Below, piece by piece: positions 3,802-9,392 of a stretch of DNA of 32,581 nucleotides. Under the pieces are notes generated by a model, which saw nothing but the letters and a program-made list of their open reading frames with translations, ran no database searches and was not told the DNA's origin. The stretch comes from Deltaproteobacteria bacterium (GTDB lineage: Bacteria; Desulfobacterota; Syntrophia; Syntrophales; UBA5619). Numbering within the stretch: position 1 is the stretch's first letter; every line of letters starts with the position of its first letter. Location of the stretch: NCBI GenBank assembly GCA_016935075.1, contig JAFGRP010000215.1, positions 1 to 32,581 of the forward strand. Direction: 5' to 3'. Made by a program: the position numbers and the translations under genes.

Positions 3802-3830
3802 TTGACAACCACATTCATCCTTGGTAGCGA
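3802..3830 (+). promoter_or_regulatory. Candidate promoter for Mn2+ riboswitch and P-type ATPase
   Basis: TTGACA (3802-3807), 17-bp spacer, then TAGCGA (3825-3830). The -35 is perfect and the -10 weak. It lies just before the riboswitch aptamer, with an AT-rich upstream tract shared with the divergent iorA promoter. Confidence 0.5.
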
Positions 3831-3834
3831 GTCC

Positions 3835-4031
3835 GGTCAAAGGGGAGTAGCTGAACAGCGCTATCGCCAACACGGCCTTGTGCCCGGTGCCGCTGGTCAG
3901 ATTCAAACAGACAGGCGGGACCTTGATCACGGCAGGTCCAGGGGCAAGATTCTTCAGAGCCTGTCGGTCGACATCGAAAAAGACAAGCGAGACCTTGACC
4001 GAGGAAGCAGCCTCTCAAAGGTCTTTTTTTT
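3835..4031 (+). ncRNA. yybP-ykoY (Mn2+) riboswitch with intrinsic terminator
   Basis: The family hallmarks are visible: AAAGGGGAGTAGC (3839-3851) at the 5' side and GCGAGACCTTGACC (3987-4000) at the 3' side. The outer helix pairs GGTCAA..GG (3835 onward) with CCTTGACC (3993-4000). The same 3' strand can instead form a terminator: AGACCTT (3990-3996) pairs with AAGGTCT (4018-4024) around an inner GAGG/CCTC stem, followed by a run of seven Ts (4024-4030). Aptamer and terminator are mutually exclusive, which predicts an ON switch: bound Mn2+ prevents termination. This matches what is known for the family, which controls Mn2+ exporters including P-type ATPases. A near copy of the 3' half occurs at 3910-3928. 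Confidence 0.87.
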
Positions 4032-4144
4032 AGCCTGCAATGGACGCCTGATCCAATTGACGAGGCGCCTGCGGGCGTCTTGAAACGGCAACATGCTTGG
4101 ATGGACCGTTCAGATGACAACCGATAGAGGAGGAGGAAACCCCC

Positions 4145-6967
4145 ATGATGGATGGACAATGCCATTTCAAAAAGATTGACGATCTCGTCGGCGAACTGCG
4201 TACCCATGTCGAACAAGGTCTCAGCAGCCAGGAGGCGAATGACCGCCTGCAAACGCATGGTCCCAATGAACTCACCGAAAAGCCCCGGCCGGGGTTCCTC
4301 AAACTGCTCCTCGACCAGTTCAACAACTTTCTGGTCATCATCCTGATCGTCGCCGCGGTGATCACGCTTTTTCTGGGCGAATATATCGACGCCATCGCCA
4401 TCACCATCATCGTCGCCCTCAATGCCGTGGTCGGCGTTGTCCAGGAATCGAAGGCCGAAAAGGCGATCGCCGCCCTCAAGAAGATGGCCGCCCCGAATGT
4501 CCAGGTCGTCCGCAACGGCGAGCAGCAGACGATTCCCGCCCGGGAACTCGTCGTCGGCGACATTGTCGTTCTGGAGGCGGGCAACTATGTCCCCGCCGAC
4601 ATGCGCCTGGTCGAGAGCGTCAACCTCAAGATCGAAGAGGCCTCACTGACGGGAGAATCGGTGCCCGTTGAGAAGAACGCGGCGGTGGTCCTGGACCGGG
4701 ACATCCCTCTGGGCGACCGGAAAAATACCGTCTTCATGAGCACCCTGATCACTTACGGGCGGGGGAAGGGTCTCGTGACGGGGACCGGCATGCACACGCA
4801 GATCGGCCTGATCGCCGAGATGCTCCAGTCCTACGAGGACGAGGCCACTCCCCTCCAGCAGAAGCTGGAGCATTTGGGCAAGATCCTCGGCACGATCTGC
4901 CTGGCCATCTGCGGCGTCGTCTTCATCTACGGTCTGTTCCGGGACACGCATCTGGCGAACGTCTTCGATATCGGCGTCCTTCATTACCTGACCACCGAGA
5001 AGGCCGACATCATCAACCTTTTCATGGTCGCCGTGAGCCTGGCCATCGCCGCCGTCCCGGAGGGGCTGCCGGCGATCGTGACCATCTGCCTGGCCCTCGG
5101 GATGCAGCAGATGATCAAGAGAAACGCACTGATCCGCAAGCTTCCCGCCGTGGAAACCCTCGGCTGCACCACGGTGATCTGTTCCGACAAGACGGGAACG
5201 CTCACCCAGAACAAGATGACCGTTCTCCAGGGATGGGCGGGGAACAAGCGTTTTCGGGTGAGCGGTGAGGGGTATGACCCGAACGGGTCGTTCACACTGG
5301 ACGGCCAACCCCTGGATCCCGCGGCGGATCCGGATGTCGCGGTGCTGCTGCAGGGCGGCCTGTTGTGCAACGATGCAATGCTCGAACAGAAAGAGGACGA
5401 TTCCGGCGCCAAACGCTGGCGGATCATCGGTGACCCGACGGAAGGGGCGATGATCGTCGCGGGGGGCAAGGGCGGCTTCTGGCGCAAGGAACTGGAGAAG
5501 GTTTTGCCGCGCGTGGAAGAGATCCCGTTCGATTCGGACCGCAAAAGGATGACGACCATCCACGAAAAAAAGCAGTCCGATTACGGAAAGGCGTCGGGTT
5601 TTGATTTTCCGCCCATTATCGCCTTTGTCAAGGGGGCGCCGGACGTGGTGCTGGACCTCTGCGGCAGATTCCTGAAAGACGGCAAACCTGTCGACCTGAC
5701 GGAAGGGCAGCGCCGGGAGATCCTCGATCAGAACCATTCGCTGGCCAGCAGCGCCCTGCGGGTTCTGGGGGTTGCCTACCGCCCCCTGTCCGAGGTGCCT
5801 GCAAACTGTATTTGTGATGAGATTGAAAAGGATCTGACCTTCATCGGCCTGATGGGGATGATCGATCCGCCGCGTCCGGAGGTGATCGAGGCGGTGAAGC
5901 TGGCCGCGGGCGCGGGATTGAAGAGCGTCATGGTGACCGGTGATTACCGGGACACCGCCGAGGCGATTGCCGGCGAGATCGGCCTTTTGACCCCCGGCGG
6001 CCTGGTCTTCACCGGGGCGGAACTGGATCGGATGAGCGACGAGGAGCTGGCGGCCCGGGCGGACCGGGTGGATGTCTGCTGCCGCGTCTCGCCGGCGCAC
6101 AAAACCAAGATCGTCGACGCCCTCAAGGCGCGCGGCCATATCGTGGCGATGACCGGCGACGGCGTGAACGACGCACCGGCCCTCAAGCGGGCGAACATCG
6201 GCGTGGCGATGGGAATCACCGGCACCGACGTCTCGAAAGAGTCGGCGGACATGGTCCTGACGGATGACAACTTCGCCAGCATCGTTTCGGCGATCGAACA
6301 GGGAAGGATCATCTATGCCAACATCCGCAAGTTCGTCTACTTCCTGCTGGCCTGCAACGTCGGCGAGATCCTGATCGTCTTCGGTGCAATGCTGATGGGG
6401 TTCCCTATCCCGCTGAAGCCCATCCAGTTGCTCTACCTGAACCTGGTCTCCGACGGGGCGCCGGCCCTGGCGCTGGGGATGGAAAAAGGCGAGCCGGACA
6501 TCATGAAGACCCCCCCCCGGCCCCCGAAGGAACCGGTAATCAACCGCGACATGGCCATCGGCATCTCCGTGGTGGCCGTCGTCGACGCCATCGCCATCCT
6601 GACGGTCTTCTACCTGGCCATGCATCGCTTCCCCGGAGATTTTGACCACACCCGAACCATTGCCTTCGTGACCCTCTGCACCTCGGAATTGCTCCGGGCC
6701 TTCACTGCCCGTTCGGAGCACCACAGCGTATTTTCGATCGGCGTTTTCTCCAACCGCTGGATGGTCTGGGCCGCAGGCGGCTCTTTCGTGCTGGTGCTTT
6801 TGACGGTCTATGTGCCTTTCCTGCGGCCCTTCTTCGACACGGTGGCCTTGGGCTGGGACGAGTGGTTATTCATGGCGCCGTTCTTCTTTGCCGCGCCGGT
6901 GGCGATGGAACTGGTCAAGGTCTATTTGCGGATCACCCGGAAAAATATACCGGCGGCACAACAGTAA
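4145..6967 (+). CDS. P-type cation-transporting ATPase (type IIA-like), probable Mn2+ exporter
   Basis: 940-aa membrane pump that couples ATP hydrolysis to cation export. In order: cation-ATPase N-terminal domain, membrane helices near residues 55-100, actuator loop TGES (169-172), helix 4 with PEGLP (305-309), phosphorylation motif DKTGTLT (Asp348), and the hinge MTGDGVNDAPALK from residue 669. Then come CNVGE (Asn738, Glu741) in helix 5 and NLVSDG (Asn766, Asp770) in helix 6. The Glu in PEGLP plus these Asn/Glu/Asp residues match the Ca2+/Mn2+ site of SERCA/PMR1-type pumps, so this is not a Cu/Zn P1B ATPase. ATG at 4145 follows GAGGAGGAGG; ATG 4148 is also possible. The Mn2+ riboswitch upstream makes Mn2+ the likely cargo; Ca2+ is the alternative. 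Confidence 0.92.
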   Translation: MMDGQCHFKKIDDLVGELRTHVEQGLSSQEANDRLQTHGPNELTEKPRPGFLKLLLDQFNNFLVIILIVAAVITLFLGEYIDAIAITIIVALNAVVGVVQESKAEKAIAALKKMAAPNVQVVRNGEQQTIPARELVVGDIVVLEAGNYVPADMRLVESVNLKIEEASLTGESVPVEKNAAVVLDRDIPLGDRKNTVFMSTLITYGRGKGLVTGTGMHTQIGLIAEMLQSYEDEATPLQQKLEHLGKILGTICLAICGVVFIYGLFRDTHLANVFDIGVLHYLTTEKADIINLFMVAVSLAIAAVPEGLPAIVTICLALGMQQMIKRNALIRKLPAVETLGCTTVICSDKTGTLTQNKMTVLQGWAGNKRFRVSGEGYDPNGSFTLDGQPLDPAADPDVAVLLQGGLLCNDAMLEQKEDDSGAKRWRIIGDPTEGAMIVAGGKGGFWRKELEKVLPRVEEIPFDSDRKRMTTIHEKKQSDYGKASGFDFPPIIAFVKGAPDVVLDLCGRFLKDGKPVDLTEGQRREILDQNHSLASSALRVLGVAYRPLSEVPANCICDEIEKDLTFIGLMGMIDPPRPEVIEAVKLAAGAGLKSVMVTGDYRDTAEAIAGEIGLLTPGGLVFTGAELDRMSDEELAARADRVDVCCRVSPAHKTKIVDALKARGHIVAMTGDGVNDAPALKRANIGVAMGITGTDVSKESADMVLTDDNFASIVSAIEQGRIIYANIRKFVYFLLACNVGEILIVFGAMLMGFPIPLKPIQLLYLNLVSDGAPALALGMEKGEPDIMKTPPRPPKEPVINRDMAIGISVVAVVDAIAILTVFYLAMHRFPGDFDHTRTIAFVTLCTSELLRAFTARSEHHSVFSIGVFSNRWMVWAAGGSFVLVLLTVYVPFLRPFFDTVALGWDEWLFMAPFFFAAPVAMELVKVYLRITRKNIPAAQQ

Positions 6968-8825: not shown

Positions 8826-9392
8826 ATGAGCATGTCCACTGTTTCTGTGCTGTTGATTGCGGTCGCTCTCGCGATGGATTCATTCGCGGTGTCTATCTCC
8901 AGCGGCATTGCGATCTCACGGGTGCGGATCCGGCATGCGCTGCTGATCGCGTCGTTCTTCGGCCTGTTCCAAGGCCTCATGCCCTTTGCCGGGTGGCATG
9001 CCGGACAGGGATTGAAGCATATGATTGCCGACTGGGATCATTGGATCGCCTTCCTTCTGCTTCTTGCGGTCGGAGTGAAGATGATCTATGACGCCTCCCG
9101 GACCAGGGGTTCGGAGAAAAAGCTTGATCCGCTGAACATCGGCACGCTGTTCGTCCTGGCTCTTGCGACGAGTATTGACGCCCTTGCCGTTGGGATTGCG
9201 CTGTCGTTTTCCGATGTCGGCATCATACTTGCCGTAATCGCCATTGGCGCTGTCACCTTCATCATGTCGTTCTTCGGAACATACGTCGGGGCGATGTTCG
9301 GGCATCTTCTGGAAGAAAAGATCGAGGTGGCCGCGGGGATCCTGTTGATCGGCATCGGCTTCAAGATTCTGCTTCAGCACACGCTCTGGTAG
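8826..9392 (+). CDS. mntP: Manganese efflux pump MntP
   Basis: 188-aa inner-membrane protein with six predicted helices. Two internally related halves each carry the family aspartate motif: ALAMDSFAVS near residue 17 and ATSIDALAVG near residue 118. It also has the FFGLFQGLMPFAGW segment typical of MntP (formerly YebN/DUF204). It exports Mn2+ from the cytoplasm. ATG 8826 and ATG 8832 are both possible; neither has a clear Shine-Dalgarno sequence. It is followed 16 bp later by the TrpF-like gene, so the two are probably co-transcribed. It is the second predicted Mn2+ exporter within 5 kb. Confidence 0.92.
   Translation: MSMSTVSVLLIAVALAMDSFAVSISSGIAISRVRIRHALLIASFFGLFQGLMPFAGWHAGQGLKHMIADWDHWIAFLLLLAVGVKMIYDASRTRGSEKKLDPLNIGTLFVLALATSIDALAVGIALSFSDVGIILAVIAIGAVTFIMSFFGTYVGAMFGHLLEEKIEVAAGILLIGIGFKILLQHTLW

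Follow-up and report, generated by a model that had tools for sequence, protein, structure and literature searches.

In the window, as the whole 32,581-nt stretch of DNA analysed here is called, the leader of a putative Mn2+/Ca2+ export pump gene has a single aptamer 5′ half and, downstream of it, the 3′ half in two copies. Judged by its core motifs, gene context and covariance model score, the leader element is a Mn2+ (yybP-ykoY) riboswitch, and comparison with a second genome from the same family and another genus (G017) indicates that the leader is a lineage-specific partial tandem duplication, neither an assembly error nor a family-wide helix. Our preferred reading of the modelled folds, held tentatively and at a little below an even chance, is a transcriptional Mn2+ ON switch with the second copy (copy B) as its closing strand; the first (copy A) would be an early competitor and then the strand of a side arm. 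The riboswitch class is known, and among the commonest, and the element is not a new kind of riboswitch; what is new is the partial tandem arrangement.

Architecture of the leader and the downstream gene

Copy A (GACAGGCGGGACCTTGATC, 3910-3928) and copy B (GACAAGCGAGACCTTGACC, 3982-4000) are identical at 16 of 19 positions (three mismatches) and lie 72 bp apart. Pairs of 19-mers with at least 16 matches were found in 0 of 200 dinucleotide shuffles of 3835-4032, in which the maximum was 14 and the mean 12.4. The duplicated block exceeds the 19-mer, because approximately 3885-3928 aligns locally with approximately 3955-4000 (score 41.5, 0 of 1000 shuffles), and the copied block comprises the third arm (GGTC...GAC) and the 3′ half. 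The 5′ motif GGGGAGTAGC has a single exact occurrence (3842-3851). The 5′ strand GGTCA-AAGG can pair with copy A via one G-U and with copy B entirely by Watson–Crick pairs, and only copy B forms the 5′ strand of a terminator-like hairpin at 3990-4031. Sequence and comparison thus bear out the original prediction that a duplicated 3′ half follows a single 5′ half, that both copies can pair with the same 5′ strand and that the second copy alone feeds the terminator; the 5′ strand that it proposed is confirmed as well, with its start corrected to 3835.

All features described here are on the + strand. A likely sigma-70 promoter (TTGACA at 3802-3807, 17 nt, TAGCGA at 3825-3830) is predicted to start the RNA near 3835. 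Its −35 element and spacing align in G017 and in two relatives with single-copy leaders on the same gene, G009 (from the window's genus) and G020 (from the genus of G017); a consensus promoter scanner did not flag 3802-3830. The putative aptamer 5′ half (3835-3852), assigned from GGGGAGTAGC and from covariance model R1 described below, consists of the P1.1 5′ strand GGTCA-AAGG, L1 (GGGGAGTA) and P1.2 (GCT). Folding predicts a P3 arm at 3856-3895, in which 3856-3860 would pair with 3891-3895 and TCGCCAACACGG (3864-3875) would form the metal-site loop L3.

The copy A unit (3895-3928) is predicted to include a third-arm segment, GGTC...GAC, and the first 3′ half, whose L1 carries G in place of adenine at 3918. 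It is followed by a diverged spacer (3929-3957) that has no T run and in which AGGUCC (3934-3939) may pair with GGACCU (3918-3923). According to folding, the next segment, GCCTGTCGGTCGAC (3959-3972), would be the 3′ strand of an arm, complementary to the copy A unit at 3896-3898, 3900-3903 and 3910-3916; an equivalent long helix is predicted at the arm position of G017. The copy B unit (3966-4000) again appears to combine GGTC...GAC with a 3′ half, the second, in which the L1 motif is intact. Overlapping copy B is a candidate intrinsic terminator at 3990-4031 (AGACCTTGA/TCAAAGGTC, top stem GAGG/CCTC, T run at 4024-4031), the hairpin of which folds at −13.9 kcal/mol and shows homology with the terminator in the single-copy leader of G020 (2 of 2000 shuffles); it went unmarked by a simple terminator scanner.

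The gene presumed to be regulated (4145-6967) encodes a protein of 940 aa that is probably a PMR1/SERCA-type calcium/manganese P-type ATPase. It matches TIGR01522 with an E-value of 6e-220 and 732 bits, under the cut-off of 798, and the assignment is also based on Pfam and on PDB relatives including Calcium-transporting ATPase type 2C member 1. Its closest named relatives are Syntrophales records, by which the genome of the window is Syntrophales-like. An mntP-type manganese efflux pump gene is located 1.9 kb past the ATPase gene (8826-9392), for which no Mn2+ riboswitch of its own was detected in the window.

Riboswitch identity and occurrence among relatives

The Mn2+ riboswitch identity suggested at the outset agrees with several features. 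The 5′ L1 strand GGGGAGUAGC occurs exactly at 3842-3851 and is invariant in 13 single aptamers, the CAA of L3 with the metal-binding adenine matches the loop in relatives (GCCAACACG, 3866-3874, aligns with their L3), and a Mn2+ homeostasis gene, the PMR1-type ATPase, is located downstream. The 3′ L1 strand GC[GA]AGAC is present in copy B and broken in copy A (GCGGGAC). With one 5′ half only, the leader does not contain the two complete aptamers of a tandem riboswitch. Riboswitch family and gene together point to Mn2+ as the probable ligand.

Model R1, a covariance model built from 13 single aptamers among which the window and G017 were not included, matches the window at 3834-3931 (53.6 bits, E-value 2e-11) and G017 at 65.3 bits, placing the 3′ half at copy A in both; its training set carried the L1 3′-strand adenine, which is a mild bias. 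RF00080, proposed in the original prediction as the arbiter between the two 3′ strands, was run and scored 13.9 bits against a gathering cut-off of 45. Its alignment reached no further than model position 24, which offered no choice between the strands, and it was dropped for this purpose. RF00080 is a poor judge here because none of the 197 genomes searched, relatives included, has a match above the cut-off, and the low score is a weakness of the model and not of the element. The Rfam 15 version of RF00080 also fails to recover many evident Mn2+ riboswitches that carry the invariant core (L033, L081, L057, L084, L003, L004 and other Syntrophales loci).

Among 155 genomes of the class, R1 identified 19 elements in 17 genomes. 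Seventeen of these have one 3′ half running straight into a terminator and precede ATPase, UPF0016/Gdt1-like or TerC-like genes (the latter two named by sequence reading and not by profile search), which constitute the usual Mn2+ riboswitch regulon. Two 3′ halves are found only in the window, at offsets of 73 and 145, and in G017, at offsets of 74 and 147; pattern search and model revealed no further element of this type in the 155 genomes. A second, weak R1 match in the window's own genome was rejected, as it is without a 3′ half and resembles coding sequence. The sole other phylum-wide pattern match (G322, locus L118, G322:C1:1181440) is a tandem array of ~80-bp units unrelated to riboswitches, and these units contain GGGGAGTAGC/GGGGAGCAGT and GGAGACC. 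A pattern search of a second class (274 genomes around that of L081) gave no matches and missed the element of L081 itself, the pattern being too strict. TerC-like genes in three Syntrophales genomes (L155, L156 and L157) have Mn2+ riboswitches of a GCAAGACC subtype with longer spacing (88-97 nt).

Identity between the window and G017 is 83% in the 5′ half, 86% in P3, 85% in the A unit and 79% in the B unit (95% in the B 19-mer), compared with 59% in the spacer and 61% in the terminator loop and 3′ strand. On this alignment, both 3′ units are preserved across two genera and the spacer is not. Two observations that the original prediction had named as counting against it were not made: the single-copy relatives have no internal helix strand equivalent to copy A, and the repeat is shared by one relative, G017, at near-equal spacing. 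The ATPase genes of G003 (L128) and G007 (L127), the closest orthologues at 90% identity, have unrelated upstream DNA without a riboswitch, and G015, the sister of G017, has no riboswitch on its ATPase gene. The ATPase control region also varies inside one genus (L127 and L128). As judged from these comparisons, the patchy distribution needs loss or transfer.

The 72-nt period is close to the combined length of the third arm, 3′ half and terminator in single-copy relatives (61-66 nt; G020 and G009). The spacer after copy A bears a faint resemblance to the terminator of G020 (46 of 2000 and 123 of 2000 shuffles), which is no more than suggestive of a decayed first terminator. The leader might have originated by tandem copying of the third arm and the 3′ half, perhaps together with the terminator, which would leave one 5′ half and two 3′ halves.

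Closing strand and possible mechanisms

The Lactococcus lactis riboswitch is an ON switch: P1.1 is stabilised by Mn2+, which keeps the 3′ strand of this helix out of the terminator (PMC11087558). Riboswitch family and gene suggest the same ON logic in the window. The single-copy leaders of G009 and G020 run from the 5′ half through P3 and the 3′ half to the terminator, and copy B with its terminator would therefore keep the regulatory junction of the family. Without Mn2+, copy B would build the terminator and the ATPase gene would be off; with Mn2+, the 5′ half would pair with copy B, the terminator would be blocked and the pump gene transcribed. In the Mn2+ fold, copy A would not close the aptamer and would instead be paired with the strand GCCTGTC preceding copy B, in an enlarged side arm. 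Since copy A is transcribed first, it may engage the 5′ half for a short time until the arm strand emerges, and we infer a transient competition of this kind.

The original prediction took copy B as the normal strand and copy A as the oddity. This is not upheld, because in R1 and in the 17 single-copy relatives the 3′ half typical of the family occupies the position of copy A. In terms of sequence comparison, copy B is the extra copy by position and the better 3′ half by sequence, because copy A has lost an otherwise invariant adenine. This L1 3′-strand adenine, the first of the AGA motif, is found in 24 of 24 distinct single aptamers (13 of one set and 17 of another), in copy B of the window and in both copies of G017. 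The metal site is connected with helix P1.1 through a sarcin-ricin-like turn formed by L1 (PMC6754395).

Folds were compared in ViennaRNA with the aptamer helices forced, and the resulting energies leave Mn2+, tertiary contacts and kinetics outside. The strand complementarity is consistent with the competition for a single 5′ half originally envisaged. At transcript lengths of 166-182 nt, where the terminator is nearly complete, the pairing of the 5′ half with copy B is predicted to be better than that with copy A by 5.8-6.7 kcal/mol in the window and by 1.9-9.2 kcal/mol in G017. Relative to the free ensemble, the copy B fold of the window costs 6.6 kcal/mol, similar to the 4.2-8.3 kcal/mol of single-copy relatives, and the copy A fold 12-13 kcal/mol. 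In G017, both folds are more costly (9-15 kcal/mol for copy B) and P1.1 is weak with either copy. Forcing the arm helix GACAGGC/GCCTGTC onto the copy B fold costs nothing, so the arm would always be contained in that fold. The predicted arm helix is long in G017 (z −2.56); its window counterpart is shorter and of ordinary stability (z −0.57). Base 3918, at which copy A departs from the aptamer consensus, is predicted to pair with C3939 in the arm, and a duplex between copy A and the spacer is modestly beyond chance (55 of 1000 in the window and 16 of 1000 in G017).

Several points speak against closure by copy B: spacing favours copy A, as the side arm would have to accommodate 72 inserted nt, and the A unit matches the 5′ half in conservation. 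The modest duplex statistics, the ordinary stability of the window arm, the adenine kept in both copies of G017 with its weak P1.1 and costly copy B fold, and the tie in the full transcript given below count in the same direction. If copy A instead closed a compact aptamer and copy B served only the terminator, Mn2+ would leave copy B free to terminate, an inverse logic that would result in a Mn2+ OFF, two-step or band-pass switch. The R1 placement in both doubles, the earlier transcription of copy A, the good conservation of its unit and a tie in the full transcript (−60.0 kcal/mol for the 5′ half with copy A plus terminator and −60.6 kcal/mol with copy B) favour this alternative, which we nevertheless consider distinctly unlikely: copy A of the window is without the adenine of the single aptamers, at its own length its fold lies ~10 kcal/mol above the free ensemble compared with 4-5 kcal/mol in single-copy relatives, and it would be surprising for Mn2+ to shut down a putative Mn2+/Ca2+ exporter. 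Pairing between spacer and copy B, which as an antiterminator could restore the ON logic, is not above chance in either genome (302 of 1000 and 732 of 1000) and finds no support; a relay model, with the spacer either freeing copy A or pairing with copy B, was rejected on the same ground. That one 5′ half builds two mutually exclusive, complete Mn2+ aptamers with opposite outcomes, and hence an inverted, two-step or band-pass response, seems improbable.

The duplication might also be the scar of a degrading riboswitch that has largely or wholly ceased to respond to Mn2+, a reading that we regard as unlikely. Such decay would be in keeping with the closest ATPase orthologues and G015 having no riboswitch, with the damaged L1 of copy A in the window and with the weak P1.1 of G017, while the apparently intact promoter and terminator and the conservation of the 5′ half, L3 and 3′ units between two genera next to a spacer of 59% identity argue against it. 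A remnant of two full tandem aptamers, the second without its 5′ half, is highly improbable. From sequence reading, only GGTCCAGGGGCAAG (3935-3948) faintly resembles a 5′ half, whereas the local alignment in the window matches from ~3885 on with no match to the 5′ half, the 72-nt period falls short of an aptamer length and comes close to that of third arm, 3′ half and terminator together, and two full aptamers were found in 0 of 155 class genomes. Despite a fragmented assembly with ~8% estimated contamination, chance likeness or an assembly artefact is barely conceivable: the shuffles speak against it, and it can be excluded because an independent genome of another genus, G017, has the same arrangement with divergent copies. 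Most economically, copy B would have taken over the closing role and copy A become part of an enlarged side arm; the conservation of copy A suggests a possible further role beyond the arm.

Relation to known riboswitches

The double-3′-half leader in two genera represents a natural experiment in which the closing strand and, possibly, the terminator were copied, and it poses the question of whether the second copy takes over or the RNA gains a second decision. The element is small and testable in vitro, and single-copy relatives can serve as controls. It is similar to the transcriptional type of RF00080, such as yoaB of L. lactis, in the invariant GGGGAGUAGC, the CAA loop of L3, the GC-AGA-C 3′ strand, the sharing of the P1.1 3′ strand with an intrinsic terminator and the P-type ATPase gene downstream. 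That type lacks the second 3′ half that the window leader carries behind its single 5′ half.

No tandem arrangement was reported among more than 5,000 Mn2+ riboswitches in a review of tandem riboswitches (PMC9481103). Similar to tandem riboswitches, the window leader contains duplicated riboswitch sequence; unlike them, it doubles the 3′ part only, and the copies use one 5′ half. The nearest analogues are ghost glycine aptamers and partially tandem T-boxes. In glycine singlet riboswitches with a ghost aptamer, an intact sensing unit likewise stands beside a partial copy, whereas the partial copy in the window would compete for the same 5′ strand. Partially tandem T-box riboswitches, the mode of action of which is unknown (PMC7583486), share with the window leader a partial duplication and differ from it in ligand and fold.
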